Positions 23,966 through 44,301 of a stretch of DNA of 58,231 nt are shown in pieces; the first letter of the stretch is position 1; each line of letters opens with the position of its first letter. The notes beneath the pieces are model-generated. The model was given only the letters and a program-made list of their open reading frames with translations. It had not been told where the DNA came from and ran no database searches. The translations under genes and the position numbers were made by a program. Source of the DNA: Gammaproteobacteria bacterium (GTDB lineage: Bacteria > Pseudomonadota > Gammaproteobacteria > RBG-16-57-12); contig JAKIVC010000017.1 of assembly GCA_021647245.1 (NCBI GenBank), positions 1 to 58,231 on the forward strand, given 5' to 3'.

Positions 23966-26123
<2,158 letters not shown>

Positions 26124-26124
<1 letters not shown>

Positions 26125-27134
26125 TGCTCAAGGTACTCAAGCGGTTTCCCCTTATTCCGAAAAAACCTGGGTTTTATTACTCCTTTCCTACATTGGCAGT
26201 CGTGGCGGGTGAGCTGTTTATGGCGGTACGGGTTGCCACGGTTGATGAGGATGAACCCCACGGTCGCGCCGGGGTGGTTTCACTCTATAAGACCACGGCA
26301 GAAAGTTTAGAGCAGTGGCCGTCGGTAAGGCTTGATTCTGTTACGGGTGAGCGTTGGGAGATCGATGCGATTCTCTCGGCTGTGGATGATGAGCTCTACC
26401 TTCAATCCCGCCACTACCGGCAAGATTTTTATAATAAGGTTTTTTTCAGCCGGCTATCTCAAGGTGAAACGCCACCAAGTTTGCGTGAAGTCGATAGGCG
26501 TGCCCTGTCGTCGCTGCAACCCTGTTTGTCGGCATCGTATGGGCACCTTGTCCGCGCAGCTGATGGCGCACTTCTGTTGCCCGCTTATGGTGGCTTGAGT
26601 AAGAGCGGCATCACCTCACCGCTGCTTTTTCACTCTTATAATGGGGGTGTAGATTGGCAGCTGCGTGCGGTGTTGGCCGATTCTGATCTCCTCGAAAAGT
26701 ATTTAAATGAATATTCTATGCTCAATTTGGGTGGCAAACGGTGGCTGGCATTGATGCGAGATAACCACAAACCGTCAATTTTGTGGCAGCTCTACTCAGA
26801 AGATGATGGCTTTAGCTGGAGCGAATTAACCGATAGTGGCTTGCGGGGGCACGCACCGATGCTCTGCGCGGTGGCGGGTGGCGTGGTTGCAATCTATCGT
26901 GAGTTGTCGCCATCGACACACGGCATCGGTTTTGCTTATAGAGTTGAGGGCAGTGATCAGTGGGTCAATGCAGCAATCAGTCGTGACTACTCTGGGGCTC
27001 TTTATAATGGTGGTTATGGTGATGTGGTTGCGCTGGCGGGTAATCGTCTGTTTGCGGCCTATTATGTGGCCGATGGAGACCAATCCCCCTGGATTGAAGG
27101 GGCTGTTTTGTCGTGGGGTGGAGAAGGCGTATGA
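26124..27134 (+). CDS. cytosolic sialidase-like (BNR/Asp-box) protein in the glycan operon
   Basis: A 336-residue protein without signal peptide. Two Asp-box motifs are visible, SYNGGVDW at 171-178 and SEDDGFSW at 225-232, the fingerprint of sialidase-type six-bladed propellers. The canonical catalytic F/YRIP arginine is not obvious; FPTLAVV...MAVRVA at 21-38 is in the right place. Sialidases act on extracellular glycoconjugates, so a cytosolic one coupled (TAATG and ATGA overlaps) between pseC and a radical SAM gene more likely acts on a biosynthetic intermediate or is a non-catalytic relative. Its reaction is unknown. Confidence 0.72.
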
Positions 27135-28639
27135 AAATCTGTAATCAAGCTGAGTCTGAACCTCGCCAGGTGGTGGATGTCCTCTTTATTAATTCAGGGT
27201 CAAGAGCCTCACTCTATCAAGGGCTGGGGGCAAACCTCTCGGCGGTAGAGCCACCCATCTTAGCGGCCCACTTTGCAGGCTATGTGCGTGGCAAAGGGTT
27301 AACCACCGATATTATTGATGCACCGGTCTTTAATCTGGGTATTGATGAGGTGGTGGCGCTGGTTGAACGGCAGTATCAGGCAACGCTGATTGTGATTCCG
27401 GTGTATGGTTTCCAACCCTCTGCATCGACGCAAAATATGACGATTGTGGGTGAGTTGTGCCGTGCTCTCAAAGCGCGCACGATGACAACGCCGATACTGC
27501 TGACCGGCACTCACCCCGCAGCACTGCCCCGCTTGACGATGGAGCAAGAGGCGGTGGAGTTTGTCTGTGACCAGGAGGGGCCGCAAACGATCTACGCTCT
27601 CCATGCTCAACTCGCTGGAGACGTGGCCGATTACAGCGCTGTTCCTAACTTATGGTACCGGGAAGGTGATGAAATTCTCTGTACCGAATCGGGCCCTTTA
27701 ATGGTGGATCTGGATAGCGAGATGCCAATGCCCGCCTGGGATCTGTTGCCGATGTCGGCGTACCGTGCCCACAACTGGCACTGTTTTGATCATATTGATA
27801 AACGGCAACCCTACGCCTCTCTTTATACCTCATTAGGCTGTCCCTATAAATGCTCTTTCTGTTGCATCAACGCCCCTTTTGGCAAGCCCGCCTACCGTAT
27901 GTGGTCACCGGAAACGGTGGTCAGGCAAATTGATGTTTTAGTGAACGAGTATGGGATTAAAAATATAAAAATCTCGGATGAGATGTTTGTACTCAATGCC
28001 CGGCATGTTCTCGAAATTTGTGATCGGCTGATTGAGCGGGGCTACGACCTCAATATTTGGGCCTATGCTCGGGTAGATACTGTTAAAGATGAGTATCTGG
28101 ATAAACTCTTCAGAGCGGGTTTTCGCTGGCTAGCGCTGGGGATAGAGTCGGCCAGTAAGCAGGTGCGCGATGGTGTGGAGAAGGGGCGTTTTGGTGATGT
28201 GGATATTATCGACACCGTGCGCCGGATTCAGCAAGCGGGTATTCATGTTATCGGCAACTACATCTTTGGCCTGCCGAACGATACCGAACAGAGTATGCAA
28301 CAAACCTTGGTGCTGGCGCTGGAGGCGCGATGTGAATTTGCCAATTTTTACAGTGCTATGGCCTATCCTGGCTCGCCACTTTACAGGCAGGCAAAAGCAC
28401 ACGGCCCGGCACTGCCGGAAAGCTGGGTTGGCTACTCACAGCACAGTTATGACTGCCTGCCGCTGGCAACCCAAACACTGAGTGCTGCGCAAGTGCTGCG
28501 TTTTAGAGATGAAGCCTTTCAGCGTTACTATTCGGATGAGGGCTACCTCGCCCAGCTAGGAGAAAAATTTGGCCCAGAGGTGTGTTCGCATATTAAAGAG
28601 ATGGCGGCGGTGCCGCTTAAACGAAAAATTTACAGATAG
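27131..28639 (+). CDS. B12-binding-type radical SAM enzyme
   Basis: A 502-residue enzyme. Residues about 10-165 form a Rossmann-like cobalamin-binding domain (PVYGFQPSASTQNM, LLTGTHPAALP), without the DxHxxG base-off motif. The radical SAM core has C237, C241 and C244 in CPYKCSFC for the [4Fe-4S] cluster and the downstream GIESASKQVRDGVEKGR pattern. No SPASM-type second cluster motif is seen. Class B members methylate unactivated carbons or rearrange sugars. The ATG at 27131 overlaps the preceding stop (ATGA). In this operon a methylation or rearrangement of a nucleotide sugar is the natural guess. Confidence 0.85.
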   Translation: MKICNQAESEPRQVVDVLFINSGSRASLYQGLGANLSAVEPPILAAHFAGYVRGKGLTTDIIDAPVFNLGIDEVVALVERQYQATLIVIPVYGFQPSASTQNMTIVGELCRALKARTMTTPILLTGTHPAALPRLTMEQEAVEFVCDQEGPQTIYALHAQLAGDVADYSAVPNLWYREGDEILCTESGPLMVDLDSEMPMPAWDLLPMSAYRAHNWHCFDHIDKRQPYASLYTSLGCPYKCSFCCINAPFGKPAYRMWSPETVVRQIDVLVNEYGIKNIKISDEMFVLNARHVLEICDRLIERGYDLNIWAYARVDTVKDEYLDKLFRAGFRWLALGIESASKQVRDGVEKGRFGDVDIIDTVRRIQQAGIHVIGNYIFGLPNDTEQSMQQTLVLALEARCEFANFYSAMAYPGSPLYRQAKAHGPALPESWVGYSQHSYDCLPLATQTLSAAQVLRFRDEAFQRYYSDEGYLAQLGEKFGPEVCSHIKEMAAVPLKRKIYR

Positions 28640-28654
28640 CGATTTGGCTGAATA

Positions 28655-29653
28655 ATGATTATAAGCAAAACACCTTTCAGGATCTCATTTTTTGGTGGCG
28701 GCACCGATTATCCCGACTGGTATCACCAGTATGGTGGGAGTGTTCTGGCAGCGGGGATTGATAAATATTGCTATATCAGTTGTCGCTATTTGCCGCCCTT
28801 TTTTGATCATAAATATCGAATTGTCTATTCGAATATCGAGAATGTAAAAGAGATCTCTGAAATTCAACACCCGGCGGTGCGTGCCGTGCTCGGCTATCAA
28901 CAGTGTTACAAGGGGCTGGAGATACACCATGATGGTGATCTACCTGCACGCTCCGGGCTGGGTTCCAGCTCCAGTTTTACCGTGGGGCTGCTGCATGCTG
29001 TTTCGGCGTTGAAAGGGCAACACATTTCGCAGGAAGAGCTGGCGCGTCAGGCGATCCATGTGGAGCAGCAGCTTATCGGTGAGCATGTGGGTTCGCAGGA
29101 CCAAATCACCGCTGCGCTGGGCGGTTTTAATCGTATTCGTTTTTTTCAGGATGGCCACTTTAGTGCAGAGCCGGTGATACTGAGTAGCCAGCGCCGGGAT
29201 GAGCTGCAAGATCACCTCATGCTCTTCTTTACCGGCTTGCAACGTAACGCTCCCGATATTGCCAAATCCAAAATTGATAATCTGCACAAACGCGTGGACG
29301 AGCTTAAGGCGATGGGTGCGATGGTGGATGAGGCGCTGGCTATCCTGACAAATGACCCGGGTGATATCGGTGAATTTGGCAAGCTGCTGGATCAGAGTTG
29401 GCAGCTCAAACGCCAGCTCTCCCACAAAGTGAGTAACCCGATGATCGATGAACTCTATCACACGGCAAAACAGGCCGGGGCGCTGGGGGGCAAATTGTTG
29501 GGTGCCGGTGGTGGTGGCTTCTTGTTGCTGTTTGTACGGCCTGAGTTACAAAGCAGGGTGCGTGAGGCGTTGCAGCAGCTGATTTATGTGCCGGTTCGCT
29601 TTGATAGTAGTGGCTCTAAAATCGTCCTCTATCAACCCAATGGGTTGGGTTAG
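28655..29653 (+). CDS. hddA: GHMP kinase, heptose-7-phosphate kinase (HddA)-like
   Basis: A 332-residue GHMP-superfamily kinase. The start TPFRISFFGGGTDYPDWY is typical of the sugar kinase branch (HddA, FKP). The ATP loop is PARSGLGSSSSFTVGLL and the C-terminal motif LGAGGGGFLL. HddA phosphorylates D-glycero-D-manno-heptose-7-phosphate at C1 on the way to GDP-heptose. The nucleotidyltransferase at 33899 is the fitting next enzyme. Isomerase GmhA and phosphatase GmhB are absent here and would be shared with LPS core synthesis. Fucokinase-like activity is an alternative. Confidence 0.8.
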   Translation: MIISKTPFRISFFGGGTDYPDWYHQYGGSVLAAGIDKYCYISCRYLPPFFDHKYRIVYSNIENVKEISEIQHPAVRAVLGYQQCYKGLEIHHDGDLPARSGLGSSSSFTVGLLHAVSALKGQHISQEELARQAIHVEQQLIGEHVGSQDQITAALGGFNRIRFFQDGHFSAEPVILSSQRRDELQDHLMLFFTGLQRNAPDIAKSKIDNLHKRVDELKAMGAMVDEALAILTNDPGDIGEFGKLLDQSWQLKRQLSHKVSNPMIDELYHTAKQAGALGGKLLGAGGGGFLLLFVRPELQSRVREALQQLIYVPVRFDSSGSKIVLYQPNGLG

Positions 29654-29655
29654 AA

Positions 29656-30606
29656 GTGTCTCTCGATGGCAAGCGGGTCTATATTCCGGGCCACACCGGC
29701 ATGGTGGGTTCTGCGCTGGTTGAGCAGTTGGCAAAAAACCGCAATGTGACACTGCTCACAGTGCCACGCGCAGCCCTTGATTTGCGTAATCAGCAGCATG
29801 TGGATGATTTTTTCGCCCGCGAAAAGCCGCAGGTGGTGATTATGGCGGCGGGTGTGGTGGGCGGCATTATCGAAAACAGGGATTACCCCGGAGACTTTAT
29901 CAGTGATAACTTAACCTTGCAGCTCAACCTGATGGTGGCCGCTCGCCGTCATGGTGTGGCGCATTTTATTTTTCTCGCCTCCTCCTGTATGTATCCACAG
30001 CAAACGCACCAGCCAATGGCGGAGTCTCAACTGCTGACGGGGCCTCTGGAGTCGACCAGCCAGGCGTATGCAGTGGCAAAGCTAGCGGGCTTGCAGATGT
30101 GTTTGGCATTTAACCGGCAAGATGGTTGCAACCGTTTTATCCCGCTGATTCCAAATACCATTTATGGCCCCAAGGATAACTTTGACCCCGCCTCAGGGCA
30201 TGTTTTACCGGCTTTAATCAGCCGTTTCATACAGGCGAAACAGGACAAAAAAGAGACCATTACCCTCTGGGGCAGTGGGCGGCCGGTGCGTGAATTTATT
30301 CATGTGGATGATGTGGTGGCGGCGATTGTGTTGATATTAAAACAGCCCCCGGAGATATTGCAGCCGCCCTATAATATTGGCTATGGCGAAGGGGTGAGCA
30401 TCGCCGCTCTGGCCACAAAAATTGCCGCAGTGGTTGGTTTTTCAGGCACTTTGGTGTGGGATAGCTCAAAGCCGGATGGCGCACCGGAAAAGGTGCTGGA
30501 TGGCACCCGCCTACAGCAGTTGGGTTGGCAGCGCCAAATCTCCCTGGAAGAGGGGATTGTGAAGAGTGTTGCGTGGTTTCGTGAACAGCAGTTAATCGCA
30601 GGCTAA
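29656..30606 (+). CDS. GDP-sugar epimerase/reductase of the Fcl/ColC type
   Basis: A 316-residue extended SDR related to GDP-L-fucose synthase (Fcl/WcaG) and GDP-colitose synthase (ColC). Visible are the NADP motif GHTGMVGSALV, FLASSCMYPQ with the catalytic Ser, YAVAKLAGLQMC with Tyr-Lys, and NTIYGPKDNFDP. These enzymes epimerise and reduce a 4-keto-6-deoxy GDP-sugar. The start is GTG at 29656, three bases after the hddA-like stop, with a weak ribosome site. With the ColD-like dehydrase downstream, a 3,6-dideoxy product is more likely than fucose (inference). Confidence 0.8.
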   Translation: MSLDGKRVYIPGHTGMVGSALVEQLAKNRNVTLLTVPRAALDLRNQQHVDDFFAREKPQVVIMAAGVVGGIIENRDYPGDFISDNLTLQLNLMVAARRHGVAHFIFLASSCMYPQQTHQPMAESQLLTGPLESTSQAYAVAKLAGLQMCLAFNRQDGCNRFIPLIPNTIYGPKDNFDPASGHVLPALISRFIQAKQDKKETITLWGSGRPVREFIHVDDVVAAIVLILKQPPEILQPPYNIGYGEGVSIAALATKIAAVVGFSGTLVWDSSKPDGAPEKVLDGTRLQQLGWQRQISLEEGIVKSVAWFREQQLIAG

Positions 30607-30639
30607 AGCCTGCCCCGATGTGTGATTAAAAGGAGATTA

Positions 30640-31671
30640 ATGGTGATTAATTTTCCCTACCAGGGGAGTGATTTTGACAGTTGTGATGAGTTTGTTGAGC
30701 GTCATGATGCTGACTTTTTGACTCGGCTTCTTTACAGCATGTTACGCATTCGACGCATCGAAGAGGCGATTGAGGGAAAATATCATGAAGATCAGATGAA
30801 GACACCGATTCACCTAGTGATTGGTCAGGAAGCGGCTTCGGTTGGCGCGTGCAGTGCATTGAGGGAGAGTGACATCCTCTATTGCGGGCACCGCACACAC
30901 GGCGCTTATCTGGCCAAGGGGGGCGACCTTAAAGGGATGTTGTCGGAGTTCTTTTGTCGGTTGAATGGTTGTGCCGGCTCCCGTGGTGGTTCTATGCATC
31001 TTCTGGATAAATCGGTAGGCATGGCCGGCTCATCGGCGATTGTGGCCGGTGCGGTGCCGATTGCTACCGGTGCGGCGTTGAGTGCGCAGCTGCGGGGAGA
31101 TGATTATGTCAGCTGTGTTTTTCTGGGTGATGCGGCCACCGAAGAGGGTGCCGTTTGGGAGAGTCTCAACTTTGCGGCACTGAAAAAATTGCCGATTATC
31201 TATTTTTGCGAAAATAACTTCTTCTCGGTCTGTACGCCACTTGAGGAGAGGCAGCCAGCCGGTGTGGCTATTTATAAAAAAGCCGCCGCATTTGGTCTGC
31301 ACAGTGTTCAAGTAGATGGCTCAAATGTGTTAAAGGTGAATGAGGCTGTTGCCGATGCGGTAGCCCGGGCACGACGCGGTGAAGGTCCCAGTTTTATTGA
31401 AGCCGAGGTTTACCGCTGGCGTGGACACGGCGGTGCTGGTGACGATAGCCATACCGGATACCGGGATCCGGCGGAAGTGGCTTATTGGCAGAAACATTGC
31501 CCGGTGGAGGGGTATGCTGATTTCCTGCAACAGCAAGGGGTGCTGAATGCACTGCAGCGAGCCGCCATGGAGCAGCAAATCAGCGACGAAATTAGCGAGG
31601 CATTTTTACATGCTGAGAAGAGCCCGAACCCCCGCAAAGAGGATCTCTACACCCATGCCTATTGTGATTGA
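30640..31671 (+). CDS. TPP-dependent 2-oxoacid dehydrogenase E1 alpha-like subunit
   Basis: A 343-residue protein of the PDH/acetoin dehydrogenase E1 alpha family. The N-terminal LLYSMLRIRRIEEAI and the THGAYLAKGG, GSRGGSMHL and SSAIVAGAVPIATGAAL segments are all typical. The Mg-TPP motif is GDAATEEGAVWESLN...ENN. AGGAG at 30631-30635 serves ATG 30640 or GTG 30643. The beta subunit follows 14 bases later. No lipoyl E2 or E3 gene is near, so this pair is an orphan inside a sugar operon and probably does not feed a dehydrogenase complex. Confidence 0.88.
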   Translation: MVINFPYQGSDFDSCDEFVERHDADFLTRLLYSMLRIRRIEEAIEGKYHEDQMKTPIHLVIGQEAASVGACSALRESDILYCGHRTHGAYLAKGGDLKGMLSEFFCRLNGCAGSRGGSMHLLDKSVGMAGSSAIVAGAVPIATGAALSAQLRGDDYVSCVFLGDAATEEGAVWESLNFAALKKLPIIYFCENNFFSVCTPLEERQPAGVAIYKKAAAFGLHSVQVDGSNVLKVNEAVADAVARARRGEGPSFIEAEVYRWRGHGGAGDDSHTGYRDPAEVAYWQKHCPVEGYADFLQQQGVLNALQRAAMEQQISDEISEAFLHAEKSPNPRKEDLYTHAYCD

Positions 31672-31685
31672 AATCGAGGTAAATT

Positions 31686-32723
31686 ATGCCCTGGGCTGAA
31701 GCATTTATTAAGTCACAACCGTCTCATACTACCGCGCCGGGCGCGGCGCGTGAGCTGAGTTATACCGAGGCGCTGAATGAAGCGCTCACCCTGGCCATGG
31801 CACTGGACCCTCATGTATTTCTATTGGGGCAGGGGGTGGATGACCCCTCCTCCATGTTTGGCGTCACTAAAGGGCTGGCCGAACAGTTTGGCTCTCCCAG
31901 AGTCTTTGATACTCCGCTTTCGGAAGAGGGGTTGACTGGCATTTGCACCGGAGCGGCTATGCACGGCTTACGGCCAGTCTACTGCCATAACCGCCCCGAT
32001 TTTCTGCTATTGGCGTTTAACCAGATTGTTAACCACGCCTCGAAAATACACTATATGGATAACGGCCTGAGCCGGGTGCCGATGGTGATCTGGTCTGCTA
32101 TCGGGCGCGGTTGGGGCTCCGGGGCGCAACACTCTCAAGCGATTCAGGGGCTGCTGATGAGTGTGCCGGGCTTGAAGATCGTGATGCCCAGTACGCCCTA
32201 TGATGCGAAAGGGTTGATGCTGGCCGCCATTGCCGATAATAACCCGGTATTAATCTTTGAACATCGCTGGCTGATGAAGCAGCAGGGAGCGGTACCCGAA
32301 GGGATCTATAAGGTGCCGATTGGCAAAGGGGTTTACCGTGAGCGTGGCACAGACCTCTCAATTATCGGCACATCCCATGCACTGGCACTGGCACAACAGG
32401 CGCTGGCATCACTTAAAGAGCAGGGGATTAGTGCCGATGCGGTGGATCTTCGTACCCTTAAACCGCTTGATCATGAGATTATTTTGGAGTCGGTTAAAAA
32501 AACCGGTCGCGCCTTGATAGTCGATACTGGCTGGGCCATGGGAGGCGCTTGTGCCGAGATCGGCTGCGTGATTGCCGAAAACTGCCCACAAATTTTGAAA
32601 GCGCCCATTAAGCGAATCGGTCTTCCAGACCTGCCGACCCCGGCGGGCCACACCCTGGAGCAACTCTACTATCCATCAGAAGAGACAATGGTTGCGGCCA
32701 TTCTCGAGCTAGTAGACAAATAA
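31686..32723 (+). CDS. TPP-dependent E1 beta-like subunit (transketolase C-terminal type)
   Basis: A 345-residue protein. The pyrimidine domain shows LSYTEALNEALTLAM, TPLSEEGLTGICTGAAMHG with the Glu that activates the thiamine aminopyrimidine, and FNQIVNHASKIHYM. The C-terminal transketolase domain (TDLSIIGTSHALALAQQAL, VDLRTLKPLD) is complete. Together with the alpha gene it forms a standard alpha2beta2 E1. E1 enzymes decarboxylate 2-oxoacids and can transfer the resulting acyl group to aldehydes or ketones. In this neighbourhood a two-carbon transfer to a keto-sugar is conceivable (inference). Confidence 0.88.
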   Translation: MPWAEAFIKSQPSHTTAPGAARELSYTEALNEALTLAMALDPHVFLLGQGVDDPSSMFGVTKGLAEQFGSPRVFDTPLSEEGLTGICTGAAMHGLRPVYCHNRPDFLLLAFNQIVNHASKIHYMDNGLSRVPMVIWSAIGRGWGSGAQHSQAIQGLLMSVPGLKIVMPSTPYDAKGLMLAAIADNNPVLIFEHRWLMKQQGAVPEGIYKVPIGKGVYRERGTDLSIIGTSHALALAQQALASLKEQGISADAVDLRTLKPLDHEIILESVKKTGRALIVDTGWAMGGACAEIGCVIAENCPQILKAPIKRIGLPDLPTPAGHTLEQLYYPSEETMVAAILELVDK

Positions 32724-32733
32724 CGGTATTGGA

Positions 32734-33909
32734 ATGAGTGCGATGTTTTATGAGTTAGCGAGTAGTTCGTGGGGTGATGAAGAGTTGCAGGCGATCCAGC
32801 GGGTGATCGCCCGGGATCGCTTCACCATGGGTGATCAGGTGAAACGGTTTGAGCAGGATTTCGCCGCCAAAATGGGTACAAAACATGCTGTGATGGTCAG
32901 CTCCGGCTCCGCCGCTAATCTGGTGGGCGTTGCGGCGCTGTGTCATAAAAAAGAGCGCCCGTTACAGCGTGGAGATGAGGTGATCGTGCCAGCCATCTCT
33001 TGGGCGACCACCTACTATCCATTGCAGCAATATGGCCTTAAATTACGCTTTGTGGACGTAGAACGCGATACCCTTAATATGGATGTCAGCCAGCTAGAAG
33101 CGGCCTTGACACCTCAAACTCGTATGGTGGTCGGGGTGAGCATTCTGGGTAATCCGGCGGCACTGGATGTGATGAGAGCATTTTGTGACCAGCATAACCT
33201 CTACTTTTTTGAAGATAATTGCGAATCCATGGGGGCAACGCTGAATGGCCAAACTTGCGGCACGTTGGGTGATATTAATACCTATAGCACCTTCTTTTCT
33301 CACCATATTGCCACCATGGAAGGGGGGATGATTCTCACTGATGATCACGAGCTGTACCATCTGGCACTTTCGCTGCGTGCCCACGGCTGGGTGCGCGACC
33401 TTCCCCAAGATACGCCACTGTGTGACCGAAGTGATGATGAATTTGAGGAGGCGTATCGATTTATTCTGCCCGGGTTTAATGCCCGCCCGCTGGAGATGAG
33501 CGGCGCGATTGGTGTCGAACAGTTGAAGAAGCTGGATGGAATGCTACGGCTGCGGCGAAAAAATGCTGAGCAGTTTCAAATGCTGTTCGGTGATGATGAG
33601 CGCTTTATTTTACAGCGCGAAAATGGCGAGAGCTCCTGGTTCGCATTTACCCTGCAAATTCACCCCGAGAGCGGCTTAACCCGCGCTGGAATATTTAAAA
33701 AACTGCGTGCCGCTGATATCGGTTTTCGCATGATTACCGGCGGCAACTTCCTGCGCCATGATGTGATTAAATACTTTGACTACGATGTGGTGGGCGGCAG
33801 CACTCCCCATGCGGATCACGCCCATGATCACGGCTTCTTTGTTGGTAATCACCCCCACGATATTCAACCCCAGCTGGCGCGGCTCAGGCAGGTACTGAGT
33901 GAGTGCTGA
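32734..33909 (+). CDS. ColD-like PLP/PMP-dependent GDP-4-keto-6-deoxysugar 3-dehydrase
   Basis: A 391-residue member of the DegT aminotransferase fold. In the position of the Schiff-base lysine it has His190 (FFSHHIATMEGG, aligned six residues before EGG as in K-x5-EGG). His at this site is the hallmark of sugar 3-dehydrases such as ColD (about 388 residues, His188) and DdhC/RfbH. The extra iron-sulfur cysteines of DdhC are not evident, and the length fits ColD, which acts without a reductase partner. ColD removes the 3-OH of GDP-4-keto-6-deoxymannose on the way to colitose. Substrate here may be the heptose analogue. Confidence 0.85.
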   Translation: MSAMFYELASSSWGDEELQAIQRVIARDRFTMGDQVKRFEQDFAAKMGTKHAVMVSSGSAANLVGVAALCHKKERPLQRGDEVIVPAISWATTYYPLQQYGLKLRFVDVERDTLNMDVSQLEAALTPQTRMVVGVSILGNPAALDVMRAFCDQHNLYFFEDNCESMGATLNGQTCGTLGDINTYSTFFSHHIATMEGGMILTDDHELYHLALSLRAHGWVRDLPQDTPLCDRSDDEFEEAYRFILPGFNARPLEMSGAIGVEQLKKLDGMLRLRRKNAEQFQMLFGDDERFILQRENGESSWFAFTLQIHPESGLTRAGIFKKLRAADIGFRMITGGNFLRHDVIKYFDYDVVGGSTPHADHAHDHGFFVGNHPHDIQPQLARLRQVLSEC

Positions 33910-34624
33910 ACGGCACGTGCTCAGTGAGGCGATTATTTTGGCCGGTGGGCTGGGCAGTCGCTTAAGATCGGTCGTCTCAGATCGACCCAAACCGATGGCA
34001 CTGGTCGCGGGGCGGCCTTTTCTGGAGTATCAAATTGAATACCTTATGGGGCAGGGTATTCAACGGGTAGTGCTCTCGGTGGGGTATCAAAAAGAGCAGA
34101 TTATCCAGCACCTTGGCAACCGCTATGGTGATGTTGAAATTGACTATGGAATAGAAGAGTCCCCGATGGGCACCGGTGGTGGCCTGCTGCTGGCACTGCA
34201 ACAGTGTGAGCAGAATGAGACGGTGCTGGTGGTGAACGGTGATACCTGGTTTCCGCTCGATCTTGCACCGATGATGCGCCTGCACCAAACGAAGCAGGCC
34301 GATGTCACCCTTGCACTTCGCCAAGGAGAGGGGGCAGGGCGTTACGGTGGCATAGATCTTGATGGGTCTCAGCGCATCGTCAACTTTTCATCACGGGGTG
34401 AATCGGGTGACTACATCAATGGCGGAGCCTATCTGATTGCAGCTGGCTGCCAGAGAGCGTGGCGGGTGCGGGGTGAACAAAAATGTTCACTGGAGATGGA
34501 TCTTCTTGAGCGAGGGGTCGGCGAGGGTTTGCGCTGCTTTGGCTTTCCCAGTGAGGCCACATTTATTGATATTGGAGTGCCCGCCGATTATGCGCGGGCC
34601 GCCAACGTGATTAACCCGAAATAG
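33899..34624 (+). CDS. hddC: sugar-1-phosphate nucleotidyltransferase, HddC-like
   Basis: A 241-residue nucleotidyltransferase. The nucleotide loop is AIILAGGLGSRLRSV...RPKPM, followed by GRPFLEYQIEYL, ESPMGTGGGLLLAL and the metal-binding VVNGDTWF. Length and the FIDIGVPADY end fit HddC (D-glycero-D-manno-heptose-1-phosphate guanylyltransferase) and related small transferases. Start GTG at 33899 overlaps the preceding gene by 11 bases. It is probably the partner of the GHMP kinase; GDP versus another nucleotide cannot be read from sequence. Confidence 0.8.
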   Translation: MSAERHVLSEAIILAGGLGSRLRSVVSDRPKPMALVAGRPFLEYQIEYLMGQGIQRVVLSVGYQKEQIIQHLGNRYGDVEIDYGIEESPMGTGGGLLLALQQCEQNETVLVVNGDTWFPLDLAPMMRLHQTKQADVTLALRQGEGAGRYGGIDLDGSQRIVNFSSRGESGDYINGGAYLIAAGCQRAWRVRGEQKCSLEMDLLERGVGEGLRCFGFPSEATFIDIGVPADYARAANVINPK

Positions 34625-34636
34625 AGGTGAGAGGCG

Positions 34637-35575
34637 ATGGGGTTTAATATATTAGTGACTGGCGGTGCCGGTTATCTGGGGTCAATTCTGCTGCCGGAGC
34701 TGTTAGCGCAGGGGCATAAAGTCACCGTATTGGATAACTTTATGTTTCGCCAGAATAGCCTGGCACAGCTCTGCATCAATCCCGGTTTCACCGTGGTTAA
34801 GGGTGATGTGCGTAGCGCTGGCATCGTGAATCCACTGCTTGCGCAGGCGGATATCATCATCCCGTTGGCGGCACTGGTGGGTGCGCCGCTATGCAATAAA
34901 GATCCGGTGGGGGCAACCACAACCAACCGCGATGCTATTTTTGCGATGATGGCGCGCCTCTCACTCGAACAGCGAGTATTGATGCCCACCACCAATAGCG
35001 CCTACGGCAGTGGTGATGAGAACAACCACTGTGACGAAAACTCGCCTCTGAATCCCATCTCCCACTATGCACGGGAGAAGGTTGAGGTGGAGCAACGGCT
35101 GTTGGCACACGACAACGCCATCAGCTTTCGCCTCGCCACCGTTTTTGGCATGGCCCCCCGCATGCGTACCGATCTGCTAGTGAATGACTTTGTCTACCGC
35201 GCCGTATACGACCGAGCAGTGGTGCTGTTTGAGAGCCACTTCAAACGTAACTACATCCATGTGCGTGATGTGAGCCGGGTGTTTCTGCACGGTATCGATC
35301 ATTTTGATGCCATGAAGGGTGAGATCTTTAATGTGGGACTCTCCAATGCCAATATCTCCAAGTGGGAGCTGTGTGAGGCGATTAAAAAACAGATCCCCGA
35401 ATTTGTCTTTGTCGAGGCGGGTGAAGGAAAAGATCCGGATCAGCGCAACTACATCGTCTCCAATCAGAAGATTGAAAAAACAGATTTTGAGCCAACCTAC
35501 TCTTTGGGTGATGGTATTACCGAGCTGATGAAAGGGTATATCATGATTAGAAACAGTTGTTATGGGAATCTATAG
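34637..35575 (+). CDS. NAD-dependent epimerase/dehydratase (extended SDR)
   Basis: A 312-residue extended SDR. NAD motif GGAGYLGS, then the substrate-side stretch ALVGAPLCNKDP, catalytic TTNSAYGSG and YAREK (Tyr-Lys), and IHVRDVSRVF near the C-terminus. The N-terminus looks like UDP-glucose 4-epimerase relatives but it is not Gmd. Relatives are seen with heptose kinase and transferase genes; it could be the 4,6-dehydratase or C4/C2 epimerase of the nucleotide heptose. GAGGTGAGAGG is a strong ribosome site. It is the last gene of the tight series; a 166-base gap follows. Confidence 0.82.
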   Translation: MGFNILVTGGAGYLGSILLPELLAQGHKVTVLDNFMFRQNSLAQLCINPGFTVVKGDVRSAGIVNPLLAQADIIIPLAALVGAPLCNKDPVGATTTNRDAIFAMMARLSLEQRVLMPTTNSAYGSGDENNHCDENSPLNPISHYAREKVEVEQRLLAHDNAISFRLATVFGMAPRMRTDLLVNDFVYRAVYDRAVVLFESHFKRNYIHVRDVSRVFLHGIDHFDAMKGEIFNVGLSNANISKWELCEAIKKQIPEFVFVEAGEGKDPDQRNYIVSNQKIEKTDFEPTYSLGDGITELMKGYIMIRNSCYGNL

Positions 35576-35741: not shown

Positions 35742-37121
35742 ATGGTTGATAAAGGTGTTAGTGCATCGCCTGAGGCAAAGAGCATGGTTGTGGGTGCTCC
35801 ACGCACCGGTTTTGCACTTCTGTTGAGTATATTGGGTGAGTTGGGTAGACCCCCGTATCAGGTTGATGAGGGTGTACAGCGTTCAGTCAATATTTTATTG
35901 CCACTGCTGGGTGAGTATCTACAGCTCAAAATTATCTCTTTTCTAGAAAAGAGGTACGTGGCGGGTGACATCATCTATAACCAGACATTTCGTCAGTTGC
36001 TGGGTGGCCCTCGCTGGTTGGATGGTGAGCAAGCCTGTGTCAGAAAGTATATCGGCGTTAAAGGTGTTGGTGACTTCACACTGTTAATCTATCTGCCCAA
36101 GAAAACGCTCCATTATCACGATAGAATTCACTCTCACTATAGCCCTTCTCGCTGGGTGAATGACCCCGAGTTTTCGGATTGCATACCTTTCGCCTCAATG
36201 CGCAACCCACTGGGTGCACTCTATTCGGCTGCATTCTCAATTAATGCCATCACTGGGGAGTACATCGATCGATTCATCGGTGATGAGGGTGACTTAAGGG
36301 ATAAATTTGCTCGGTTTCGTCTCACTGATATGGCGATGGTAGATGGCTTGATGTCACATGCTTGCTCATATTTGGAGGAGTTCTGTCTTGTTCGGGATGC
36401 TTTCAATCTGTTCCGTTGGGAAGATATCATTCAAAATCCGGCATTAAATATTGTTGATATTGCCCGCTGTCATGGGATCTTTCTCTCTGTTGATCAGGCT
36501 CAGAGGTTGTGGGATAAAATAGCCTATAAGAATCTGACTGGAAAACATCAGTATAATTTTAGGAAAAGTAAACGGAGGGGGGTGGTTGATGATTGGCGAT
36601 ATTTCCTCACAAATGAACACCTAGAACAGTTCAAGGGGCATGGTGTCGACCTGTATATGGCTGAATTTGGTTATGCGCCTATTGCCCTGTTTGATGAGCG
36701 GAACTACAGCCCATTTCAGCGTAAAATAAGTGAAGCGTTGGCAAAAGGTGAGGTGTTGACGGAGGGGTTAGAGGATCGGAATCTACAAATTTTTAACTGG
36801 AATAAATCCAATATCACAAAAACAGCTCATAATTTTGAGCGATTCCCCCGCAAGAATTTTAGTTGTATTGAACGTGCAAATTTTTCTGATAGCGATGTTT
36901 TGGAGGGGTTTTCAGAGCATATCGAAGAGGTGATGTTATTTGTAAATCACTTTATTGACGAGGTTTATGAGGCGGGTAAAGAGCAAGATGTTGATGGCTG
37001 GAGGGTACGGCTTATCAATGTTCGGAATGAATATAGAGAGCCCTTCAACGCGTTAAATAACAAGGTATTAGCTGATTTTTATTCACAACGGTTCGATCTT
37101 CTTTTTGATGCTATTTTTTAA
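35742..37121 (+). CDS. divergent sulfotransferase-like protein
   Basis: A 459-residue cytosolic protein. The N-terminal SMVVGAPRTGFALLLSILGEL resembles the PAPS 5'-phosphosulfate loop (GxPRSGTT type, with Thr-Gly-Phe variant). SMRNPLGALYSAAF resembles the 3'-phosphate site, and FRWEDIIQNP matches the sulfotransferase end pattern. The C-terminal 130 residues are unassigned. The gene is more AT-rich than the upstream sugar genes, so it may have been acquired separately. AGGTGG at 35728 supports the start. Confidence in fold is moderate and the acceptor is unknown. Confidence 0.62.
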   Translation: MVDKGVSASPEAKSMVVGAPRTGFALLLSILGELGRPPYQVDEGVQRSVNILLPLLGEYLQLKIISFLEKRYVAGDIIYNQTFRQLLGGPRWLDGEQACVRKYIGVKGVGDFTLLIYLPKKTLHYHDRIHSHYSPSRWVNDPEFSDCIPFASMRNPLGALYSAAFSINAITGEYIDRFIGDEGDLRDKFARFRLTDMAMVDGLMSHACSYLEEFCLVRDAFNLFRWEDIIQNPALNIVDIARCHGIFLSVDQAQRLWDKIAYKNLTGKHQYNFRKSKRRGVVDDWRYFLTNEHLEQFKGHGVDLYMAEFGYAPIALFDERNYSPFQRKISEALAKGEVLTEGLEDRNLQIFNWNKSNITKTAHNFERFPRKNFSCIERANFSDSDVLEGFSEHIEEVMLFVNHFIDEVYEAGKEQDVDGWRVRLINVRNEYREPFNALNNKVLADFYSQRFDLLFDAIF

Positions 37122-37150
37122 CCGATTCCATCGGGTGTAGGTGTTTTGCT

Positions 37151-38431
37151 ATGAATAATCGATTGATTTTTGTTGAAGAGTACACAGTCGCATCGTTGCG
37201 GGGTGAAATTAGAGAACAGATGAAGCGCCTTGATAAGCCTGTGGTGCTTTTATTGCGGGGTAGTGGAGAGGTTTACTCACACCTGTTGGATGAAGTATCC
37301 GGTTGGGATGATATAACGATTTTGGTTGATGAGTGCGCATATTCTGATTTGGATCTCCTCTGCTTTGATACCACGACCTCGCTTGCGGAGGCGCTGCATA
37401 CCTATATTGATAAAACGGGGAAGACTATTATTGCGCCCGTAACGGGTTCGTATTATAAAAAAAGGCCACTCTATCTGATTGGTATTCCAAAGTCGGGCAC
37501 ACACTTGTTGATGGCGCTTGCCAAGGTGTTTGGGTATGTAGCGCGAGGTGCTTCACCTGAAAAGCCGAAAGGGGGGGAGTGGCACTATGTGGAGCACAAT
37601 AATGCTCATACGACTGCAAAAAACTTCTTTATTGAGAGCGTTTATAAGGGCGACTTTGGCTTAAGGGATCACCCCTTTATCTACTCTCCGGCACTATTCA
37701 TCTATAGAAATCCTGCTGATGTCGTTATCTCCGAGGTGAGTTATTATCCTAAAAAAGGTAACAGCGCTTTTTATAACTATTTTACCGGGAAATCATTCGA
37801 AAAACGATTGTCGCTGTTGATCAATGACCCATACCTGCTGGGTACTATACGGGATCGTATTGTTCAATATATCCCTTGGTTATCATTTCCCAATGTAATT
37901 CCGGTCTCATTTGAAGAGTGTGTCGGCTCTCATCGAGGTGGTGACGACACGCTACTTTATCAATTGATCTGGTCACTTCAGTTGAAATTGCATATTCCCG
38001 GCTCACCGGTTGAGTTTGCCAGTCAACTGTTGCTCTCATCGAGTGAGACGCACTACAAGGGGTTATGTGGTCGTTATAAAGAACACTTTTCTGCAGATAA
38101 CTATTGTGCGTTCAATGCGTTGCCTACTGATTTTACAGCACTTTTCGGGTATAAATGCAGCCTGAAAGCGGCCGTTTTCTCTTCGAATATTGACCGATAC
38201 CGGCGACGAAGCCTAGTGGTGGACGAAGCACCAGAATGGCCGCCTATTATCAGGGATAATCAATTTCTTGATCACCGGATTATTGAGTGTCAGGGTGAGC
38301 TGTATGGCGTTCCGTTTGGAACGGCTCTGGCCGATTTGAAGAGATTATTACAGGAAGAGGACTCACCGATCGTCGCTGGACGGTATGTGGAGGAGGTCAA
38401 AGTGAAGTTAATTAAAAAATATATCGGTTAA
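37151..38431 (+). CDS. sulfotransferase family protein
   Basis: A 426-residue cytosolic protein. After an N-terminal 100-residue domain of unknown role comes the classical PAPS loop LIGIPKSGTHLLMALAK (about 109-125), then ALFIYRNPADVVISEVSYY, the 3'-phosphate binding strand and helix of sulfotransferases. With the preceding protein it suggests sulfation of the glycan or of a glycosylated protein (inference). Base composition is AT-rich like its neighbour. It is 29 bases from the gene before and three from the gene after, so one transcript. Confidence 0.8.
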   Translation: MNNRLIFVEEYTVASLRGEIREQMKRLDKPVVLLLRGSGEVYSHLLDEVSGWDDITILVDECAYSDLDLLCFDTTTSLAEALHTYIDKTGKTIIAPVTGSYYKKRPLYLIGIPKSGTHLLMALAKVFGYVARGASPEKPKGGEWHYVEHNNAHTTAKNFFIESVYKGDFGLRDHPFIYSPALFIYRNPADVVISEVSYYPKKGNSAFYNYFTGKSFEKRLSLLINDPYLLGTIRDRIVQYIPWLSFPNVIPVSFEECVGSHRGGDDTLLYQLIWSLQLKLHIPGSPVEFASQLLLSSSETHYKGLCGRYKEHFSADNYCAFNALPTDFTALFGYKCSLKAAVFSSNIDRYRRRSLVVDEAPEWPPIIRDNQFLDHRIIECQGELYGVPFGTALADLKRLLQEEDSPIVAGRYVEEVKVKLIKKYIG

Positions 38432-42517: not shown

Positions 42518-43447
42518 ATGAAATTCAAATTAATATACGAAAATCACGGTCATTTCGGTATTCATGTGGGGGACTATTTTCTCTATTTGAAATACGCTCT
42601 GGAGTCGTTGGGGCACCGTGCTGATATTGAGTATGCCTTCTGCCCGGGAGAGATGAATATTGTGCTTGAGTGCTTTAACGATGCTTTCGCAGAAAAAGTA
42701 GAGTCAAACTGGACCCCAGGCACGGCAATGATTGTGGTTGCCACGGAGTTTTTGACGGGCCACACCTTTAATGATATTTACCAAGATGCCGCTGAAAACC
42801 AGCGGGCATCTGACCATAATCAGCGCCGGGATTTCTGGCAGATGCGCTACACAAATTTTATCCGTTTGATGCCCCGCTTTTCTGCCATCTGGCACGTTTC
42901 GGATGAGCAGCAGCTGGTCTATCAACAAGCGTTCCCAGATAAAGTAGTCGACTACTTGCCCCATGGCTATTGTGAGTCGTTTGCTACCGTTGAACACCGC
43001 AGTAACGCGGAGAAGGATATTGATATACTGTTTACCGGTGCGATGACCACTTACCGCCGCCAGGTGCTGGATGCGCTAGAACAAGGTGGTTTGAAGGTGC
43101 TATCAACCGTGCAGTTTACCGCCCCCTTTCATCGTGAAGATTTGATCGCCCGCAGTAAGTTAACCCTGAATATTAAACAGCACCCCGACTGGCAGCACGA
43201 GTCGGTTACACGCCTCTACTACCACATCTGTAACGACTCGCTGTTAATGACAGACCAATGTCGTTATACAACAGATCTGCACCACCATGTTATCGAGCGG
43301 GATGGGGAGTGGCTGGATACGGTACAGCGGGTGTTATCCCAGGGTGGCTTCACCGAACGGGCGGTAGCAACTCGGGAGCGCTATGCCTTAGCGCGACCAG
43401 TGGCTGCAGTGATGGATCCGCTGTTGCAGCGGGTTGAGCTGTTGTGA
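42518..43447 (+). CDS. CgeB/YkvP-like glycosyltransferase
   Basis: A 309-residue protein. The N-terminal LIYENHGHFGIHVGDYFLYLKYALESLGH and the C-terminal IDILFTGAMTTYRRQVLDAL then LIARSKLTLNIKQHPDW...RLYYHICNDSLLMTDQC form the donor-site half of CgeB-type GT-B transferases. The ATG at 42518 is favoured because homologous N-termini begin there; a GTG at 42500 is possible, and neither has a good ribosome site. The stop overlaps the next start (TGATG). It heads a three-gene operon with a NeuB-like synthase. Confidence 0.72.
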   Translation: MKFKLIYENHGHFGIHVGDYFLYLKYALESLGHRADIEYAFCPGEMNIVLECFNDAFAEKVESNWTPGTAMIVVATEFLTGHTFNDIYQDAAENQRASDHNQRRDFWQMRYTNFIRLMPRFSAIWHVSDEQQLVYQQAFPDKVVDYLPHGYCESFATVEHRSNAEKDIDILFTGAMTTYRRQVLDALEQGGLKVLSTVQFTAPFHREDLIARSKLTLNIKQHPDWQHESVTRLYYHICNDSLLMTDQCRYTTDLHHHVIERDGEWLDTVQRVLSQGGFTERAVATRERYALARPVAAVMDPLLQRVELL

Positions 43448-44301
43448 TGCCGTTCTTTATCGCCGAAGTCTCCAGTAACCACCATGGCGACCTGCAGCGC
43501 TGTTTTCAGTTTATCGATAAAGCCGCTGAAATGGGTTGTGATGCGGTCAAGTTTCAACTGTTTAAAATCGACCAACTTTTTTCCCCTGAAGTGCTGCGAG
43601 CAAGTGAGCAGCATCGTCAGCGACGAGAGTGGGAGCTACCACTATCATTTCTGCCTGCTCTGGCGGAGCGGTGCCAGCAGCAGAGTATTCAGTTTGCCTG
43701 TACTCCTTTTTATCTACAAGCCGTTGAACAGCTGCAACCCTATGTCGATTTTTATAAAATAGCTTCCTATGAACTGCTGTGGGATGAGTTACTGGTGGCG
43801 TGTGCTGAAACAGCCAAACCGGTGGTTCTCTCCACAGGCATGGCAACGCTGGATGAGGTGAAACATGCGGTGGATCTGTTCAAGTGTAATACTCAACAGT
43901 TGAGTTTGTTGCACTGTGTTTCGGGCTACCCGACACCGATTGATCAGTGCAATTTGGCGGCGATTCAGACCCTGCGTGATTGCTGTGGTTGCCCGGTGGG
44001 TTGGTCTGATCACACGGTTTCGCCCATGGTGCTACAACGCGCTGTGCACCGTTGGGGGGCGGAAATAGTGGAGTTTCATCTCGACCTTGATACGCAAGGC
44101 GAAGAGTATGCCGCGGGGCACTGCTGGTTGCCAGAGAAGATTGCGCCACTCATCCGTGATATTCGCAGTGCCTTTACGGCGGATGGCTCGGCACGCAAGG
44201 AGCCAGCGCTGGTTGAGCAGGTTGATCGAGACTGGCGAGCAGATCCGCAGGATGGTCTGCGTCCGCTGCGCCATATTCGCAAAACATTTGGCAGGGGGTA
44301 G
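43447..44301 (+). CDS. short NeuB/PseI-like nonulosonate synthase without SAF domain
   Basis: A 284-residue TIM-barrel enzyme of the sialic acid synthase family, which condenses PEP with a hexosamine-type sugar. Seen are IAEVSSNHHGD, AVKFQLFKIDQLF, FACTPFYLQAVE, VVLSTGMATLDEV, the first metal His in GWSDHT and the second in VEFHLDLD (aligned to ERHFT). The C-terminal antifreeze/SAF domain (about 60 residues) present in NeuB, PseI and LegI is absent. The PGPDH-type segment after the second His is replaced by TQGEEYAAGH. The substrate could differ from the usual. Coupled to the gene before. Confidence 0.82.
   Translation: MPFFIAEVSSNHHGDLQRCFQFIDKAAEMGCDAVKFQLFKIDQLFSPEVLRASEQHRQRREWELPLSFLPALAERCQQQSIQFACTPFYLQAVEQLQPYVDFYKIASYELLWDELLVACAETAKPVVLSTGMATLDEVKHAVDLFKCNTQQLSLLHCVSGYPTPIDQCNLAAIQTLRDCCGCPVGWSDHTVSPMVLQRAVHRWGAEIVEFHLDLDTQGEEYAAGHCWLPEKIAPLIRDIRSAFTADGSARKEPALVEQVDRDWRADPQDGLRPLRHIRKTFGRG

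Follow-up and report, generated by a model that had tools for sequence, protein, structure and literature searches.

An E1-type ThDP enzyme pair in a recurrent GDP-sugar cassette as a putative carboligase for branched heptose-derived sugars

Within a 58,231-nucleotide contig from a gammaproteobacterium (the window, meaning the whole stretch analysed), the genes for the alpha and beta subunits of an E1-type enzyme lie inside a GDP-sugar operon. We propose that the pair is a dedicated ThDP carboligase that works outside the oxo-acid dehydrogenase complexes and branches GDP-3-deoxy-4-keto-heptose, a reading to which we assign a probability of roughly 0.6. It draws on the gene content and its conservation, on the separate clade of the E1 proteins, on the absence of E2 and on the His-type 3-dehydratase, all of which can be read from the sequences. 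The branched sugar would most likely end in cell-surface or flagellar glycans. If the proposal is correct, proteins annotated as pyruvate dehydrogenase E1 in more than 10 phyla would lead to branched surface sugars and not to acetyl-CoA, and the products would form a new family of C9 sugars.

The putative carboligase consists of an E1 alpha-type subunit (30622..31671, + strand) and an E1 beta-type subunit (31686..32723, + strand). The alpha open reading frame begins with a GTG at 30622, but translation more probably starts at the in-frame ATG (30640), the start favoured by the sister-species sequences. The alpha subunit matches Pfam E1_dh at 228 bits and the beta subunit matches Transket_pyr and Transketolase_C at 120 and 101 bits. 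Among solved structures the alpha subunit is closest to human PDH E1 alpha (155 bits), the beta subunit to Geobacillus PDH E1 beta (227 bits). The enzyme is of the two-chain, E1-type ThDP kind and has both catalytic residues, Glu and His. The preliminary description had placed a complete alpha/beta pair between an Fcl-like SDR and a sugar 3-dehydrase, with neither E2 nor E3. The open reading frames and Pfam matches confirm this arrangement within a GDP-sugar operon, and Pfam and profile searches found no E2 or E3 among the operon-region proteins scanned.

All the neighbouring genes of the operon lie on the + strand. Upstream of the pair are a B12-binding radical SAM enzyme (27113..28639; Pfam Radical_SAM and B12-binding), an HddA-type anomeric sugar kinase (28655..29653; HddA profile 152 bits, cut-off 600; nearest structure 3k85) and the Fcl-like SDR (29656..30606; GDP-L-fucose synthase profile 373 bits, cut-off 500; PDB 1e6u/7ll6), which we infer to be the keto-reductase of the branched product. 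The best NCBIfam profile for the radical SAM enzyme is HpnJ, far under its cut-off (141 bits vs 577), and its nearest solved chains are AprD4 and OxsB; it may carry out C-methylation or the formation of a C-C bond or ring. Downstream lies a ColD-type PLP 3-dehydratase (32734..33909), a DegT protein with 431 bits to ColD in which the PLP lysine is replaced by His (SHHIATMEGG). Such a His is the mark of a 3-dehydratase, and it occupies this position in 49 of 49 ColD-like cassette homologues among the matches listed. The operon continues with an HddC-type sugar-1-phosphate guanylyltransferase (33899..34624; HddC profile 172 bits, cut-off 300), matching PDB 5xhw/6jq8 with the title 'Putative 6-deoxy-D-mannoheptose pathway protein', and with a Cj1427-like SDR, a putative GDP-heptose C4-dehydrogenase (34637..35575), which scores 342 bits to PDB 6vo6, presumably Cj1427 itself, vs at most 77 bits to all other solved chains. 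Just outside this run, a BNR-repeat-like protein (26124-27134) is kept beside the operon in both sister species at 62-83% identity, and two sulfotransferase-like genes (35742-38431), the first of them alone with a Pfam match, follow the cassette and are both conserved in one sister species (G002, locus L045).

We infer pyruvate as the donor, a heptose as the acceptor, attack at C4 and the following order of steps. The Cj1427-like SDR would oxidize C4 and the ColD-like PLP enzyme would remove the C3 hydroxyl to give GDP-3-deoxy-4-keto-heptose, after which E1 alpha/beta would decarboxylate pyruvate and add the hydroxyethyl-ThDP to the C4 ketone. The resulting 4-C-acetyl sugar would be a branched C9 sugar, the heptose analogue of the yersiniose precursor, whose branch the Fcl-like SDR might reduce and which the B12 radical SAM enzyme might tailor further. 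It is the HddA- and HddC-type genes, together with the Cj1427-like C4-dehydrogenase, that point to GDP-3-deoxy-4-keto-heptose. Cj1427 acts on GDP-heptose (PMC10680097), and Raushel's group obtained GDP-D-glycero-3-deoxy-4-keto-heptose in vitro with Cj1427 and a C3-dehydratase (PMC10680097), so that the predicted acceptor is defined, testable and already made by chemists. Judged at the level of gene family only, a cluster making a keto-sugar nucleotide surrounds the pair, and the HddA and HddC matches, being under their equivalog cut-offs, are likewise family-level assignments. A 4-keto-forming enzyme, either Cj1427-like or GMD-like in its stead, is present in 35 of 36 wide cassettes among the matches listed, a proportion that is partly by construction, the Cj1427-like SDR being one of four cassette-defining markers. 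GmhA-like genes occur inside several cassettes among the matches listed, and loci L115 and L112 each bring together GmhA-like, HAD, HddA, HddC, Cj1427-like, ColD-like, E1 and radical SAM genes. The heptose assignment is weakened because GmhA (SIS_2) was not found in this assembly, while both sister species have one; either an assembly gap hides the gene or the pathway starts from another sugar. A GmhB-like gene is present but stays below its profile cut-off, with 109 bits vs 149.6. An L-2-hydroxyglutarate-oxidase-like gene was also seen in 3 cassettes among the matches listed, in keeping with the proposed route.

The sister species retain the operon nearly gene for gene, with E1 alpha/beta identities of 82-88% in one and 84-91% in the other. 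An E1-beta alignment, run against 84,980 species, retrieved at least 80 loci, collected by that query and therefore no census of cassettes. The recurrent set comprises the HddA-type kinase, the HddC-type guanylyltransferase, the Cj1427-like C4-dehydrogenase, the ColD-like 3-dehydratase and E1 alpha/beta, often joined by the Fcl-like reductase and the B12 radical SAM enzyme. Among the matches listed, 51 loci were wide, with at least 6 kb on each side of E1, and in these the ColD-like gene was found in 35, HddA in 34, Cj1427-like in 30, HddC in 26, radical SAM in 24 and Fcl in 22; at least three of the six markers were present in 35/51. The markers co-occur strongly in pairs (ColD-like with Cj1427-like, Fisher p 7e-6), for loci that are not independent by descent. 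Loci with at least three markers come from Pseudomonadota, Thermodesulfobacteriota, Omnitrophota, Planctomycetota, Chloroflexota, Nitrospinota, Acidobacteriota, Myxococcota, Verrucomicrobiota, Poribacteria, Bacillota and candidate division WWE3, placing the cassette in more than 10 phyla. Plasmid pDMC1 of Solidesulfovibrio magneticus carries radical SAM, NUDIX, kinase, E1 alpha, E1 beta, Fcl, DegT, epimerase and nucleotidyltransferase genes in one run. Phage records among the matches listed, many of them short and unannotated, encode E1 betas that are all below 43% identity. As a separate observation, an aldo/keto reductase gene lies near the E1 in loci L119, L122, L099, L101 and L103, at 44-52% to a copy on an Azospirillum B510 plasmid (L155); the branch ketone of paulomycin is reduced by the aldo/keto reductase Pau7.

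A search that started from the Cj1427-like SDR, and not from E1, returned seven plasmid records, four of which have E1 alpha/beta close by. On the plasmids of Azospirillum sp. B510 and A. argentinense, a two-subunit split transketolase adjoins the HddA-type kinase and the Cj1427-like SDR and occupies the place expected for E1 alpha/beta (L155:11017-12812 and L156:10198-11960, both on the - strand), and a Sinorhizobium fredii plasmid record has the kinase and the SDR with neither E1 nor split transketolase. Split transketolases in Streptomyces are proposed C2-branching enzymes (PMC12247030). That two unlike ThDP C2-transferases adjoin one and the same module argues for a C2 transfer at this step.

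The genome, which is 99.5% complete and was searched by gene family, holds only two E2 genes, each adjoining its own E1: AceE, AceF and a lipoyl-bearing Lpd stand together on one contig (C3), and SucA, SucB and Lpd on another (C38). Since both E2 genes have their own E1, there is no unclaimed E2 for the window pair; no unpaired E2 was found in the genome, which speaks against an oxo-acid dehydrogenase E1. No E2 was found near the E1s of any of 50 cassettes among the matches listed. An E2 is adjacent in 18 of the 21 short E1 loci (L019-L039), related E1 pairs in other genomes of the class usually have one inside the same 4 kb, and nearly all E1s in genomes of the genus of a Coxiella-like endosymbiont have one adjacent. 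In an E1-beta tree built without the AviB, Pau and KbDH sequences, the E2-linked proteins form a clade of their own (30 rows, SH-aLRT 96) and the window E1 beta falls in a 27-row clade free of any E2-linked protein; the cassette E1 betas are split over two clades, not one, both of them apart from the E2-linked clade.

The residues follow the same division. Glu59 and His128 (Geobacillus numbering), the catalytic pair, are universal in the E1 betas compared and are kept in the window protein as E80 and H149, whose Q49 stands in place of the canonical E28. Among the matches listed, position 28 is Glu in 28/28 E2-linked and 0/50 cassette proteins, all 50 of the latter having Q, L, I or M. H101, R103, D105, W143, D280 and W283 are invariant in cassette E1 betas and absent or nearly absent in E2-linked ones, and the cassette E1 alphas have lost the M and D of the HSMSD loop and kept the catalytic-loop His. 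Glu28 and the HSMSD loop count here by their observed conservation in E2-linked E1s. This pattern would fit a retained decarboxylation with an altered second half-reaction. The ThDP motif of the E1 alphas also shows a change from GDG to GDA, which is not specific to cassettes. Aligned to 1w85_B, the window E1 beta has a similar C-terminus, in which the E2-contact residues are not placeable by alignment alone.

That the pair is instead a conventional E1 of PDH or acetoin dehydrogenase, using an E2 from elsewhere and in the operon by chance, would agree with its PDH/AcoAB-type sequence family and with the presence of an E2 (AceF) in the genome. Both E2s, however, have dedicated E1s of other types, the cassette is kept across phyla, and the E1s form a separate clade with the E2-type residues lost; on genome content and phylogeny we reject a PDH role and regard this reading as highly improbable. 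The view of the preliminary description that the pair is a keto-sugar C2-carboligase and not a PDH finds good support in context, in phylogeny and in the lost E2-type residues. The acceptor it had named was ColD's 4-keto-3,6-dideoxyhexose, and the same chemistry on a GDP-4-keto-hexose of this kind is an unlikely but substantial alternative: ColD, the closest of the solved structures to the ColD-like enzyme, acts on a hexose, a GMD-like dehydratase replaces the Cj1427-like SDR in some related cassettes, and the HddA/HddC scores are of family level only. Against it, no GDP-mannose 4,6-dehydratase over cut-off was found in the genome, which weakens a GDP-mannose/colitose route, the usual 4-keto former of the cassettes is the SDR resembling Cj1427, an enzyme of GDP-heptose (PMC10680097), and several cassettes have GmhA-like genes. 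With HddA/HddC-type and Cj1427-like genes present, the acceptor is probably a heptose and not the hexose product of ColD.

It is also conceivable, though very unlikely, that the pair makes another oxo-acid-derived building block, such as a precursor for a flanking pseudaminic-type sugar. PseB/PseC (23978-26124) and a short NeuB-like gene (43444-44301) do flank the operon in the window, and PseB/PseC also neighbour the cassette in sister species and, together with NeuB, in L046; most cassettes, however, have GDP-sugar genes without PseB/PseC, and to our knowledge there is no nonulosonate route that uses an E1. The proximity rather suggests that a pseudaminic-type sugar and the cassette sugar serve one glycan, perhaps on flagellin. 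Returning to the branched heptose, we consider it quite unlikely that the cassette leads to a caryose-like carbocyclic C9 sugar. HpnJ and BchE, the best (distant) profile matches of the radical SAM enzyme, are involved in forming five-membered rings. Trinickia caryophylli, the caryose producer formerly called Pseudomonas caryophylli, is not among the at least 80 loci from the E1-beta scan. Caryose is 4,8-cyclo-3,9-dideoxynonose (PMC9026286), and such a route is suggested because a 3-deoxyheptose with a C4 acetyl would match it exactly in the number of carbons, in the 3-deoxy position and in the C9 methyl; only the C7-C8 bond is missing, which the B12 radical SAM enzyme might form.

The branched-sugar reading may bear on Coxiella. 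Of the genomes searched, none was recognised as Coxiella burnetii itself, and the genome read was that of Coxiella-like endosymbiont 580, in which the same eight cassette genes lie around the chromosome end/start (L065:1-3929, L153:68-4479), with HddA, Fcl and E1 beta in fragments and the cassette thus partly decayed. In C. burnetii, CBU_0686, CBU_0692 and CBU_0693 of the O-antigen region have been read as a pyruvate dehydrogenase serving acetyl-CoA and fatty acids (PMC5423948), and the O-antigen structure is unresolved (PMC5843353, PMC5423948). By analogy, these 'pyruvate dehydrogenase' genes may have a sugar role of the cassette kind, which would give them a different function from the one assigned.

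The preliminary description had suggested that the pair could be an independent solution to sugar branching, but E1-type alpha/beta pairs are already assigned to this task in avilamycin, paulomycin (Plm8/Plm9, PMC4802897), aldgamycin and kibdelomycin, and KbDH has been studied in vitro (PMC12247030, PMC4802897). The aKADH2 group of actinobacteria numbers about 120 clusters (PMC12247030), and its pairs (AviB1/AviB2, Pau11/Pau12, Plm8/Plm9, KbDH-alpha/beta) resemble the window pair as two-subunit E1-type ThDP enzymes in sugar clusters, for which transfer of the pyruvate C2 unit onto a keto-sugar or ketone has been proposed or shown (PMC12247030, PMC4802897, PMC4753412). They serve actinobacterial antibiotics and mostly deoxyhexoses, whereas the window pair belongs to a GDP-sugar, probably a heptose, in Gram-negative and other bacteria, and its cassette, unlike the aKADH2 clusters, has a ColD-like dehydratase, a Cj1427-like SDR and a B12 radical SAM enzyme. 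A literature search mostly outside subscription journals returned no paper that brings E1 and radical SAM together with heptose and glycan genes. As far as the literature reached, the kind of enzyme is known, and the GDP-heptose setting, the use outside antibiotics and in Gram-negative glycans, the wide cassette and the B12 radical SAM enzyme appear to be new. YerE, of yersiniose in the Yersinia O-antigen, likewise places the acetyl of pyruvate on C4 of a 3-deoxy-4-keto sugar nucleotide, but it is a single-chain flavoprotein of the decarboxylase superfamily acting on a CDP-hexose and belongs to another ThDP superfamily than E1 alpha/beta; the window pair, whose E1_dh and Transketolase_C domains are divided between two chains, is not YerE-like. 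Campylobacter jejuni Cj1427 and the HS:5 C3-dehydratase share with our proposal the C4 oxidation and PLP-dependent C3 dehydration of GDP-heptose, but the C. jejuni pathways as described end in C4 reduction, and the papers describe no C-branching step (PMC10680097, PMC10440746). The split-gene transketolases of miharamycin and amipurimycin are likewise proposed to transfer C2 by ThDP to a keto-sugar (PMC12247030), but they are of another ThDP family and transfer hydroxyacetyl, not the acetyl of pyruvate.
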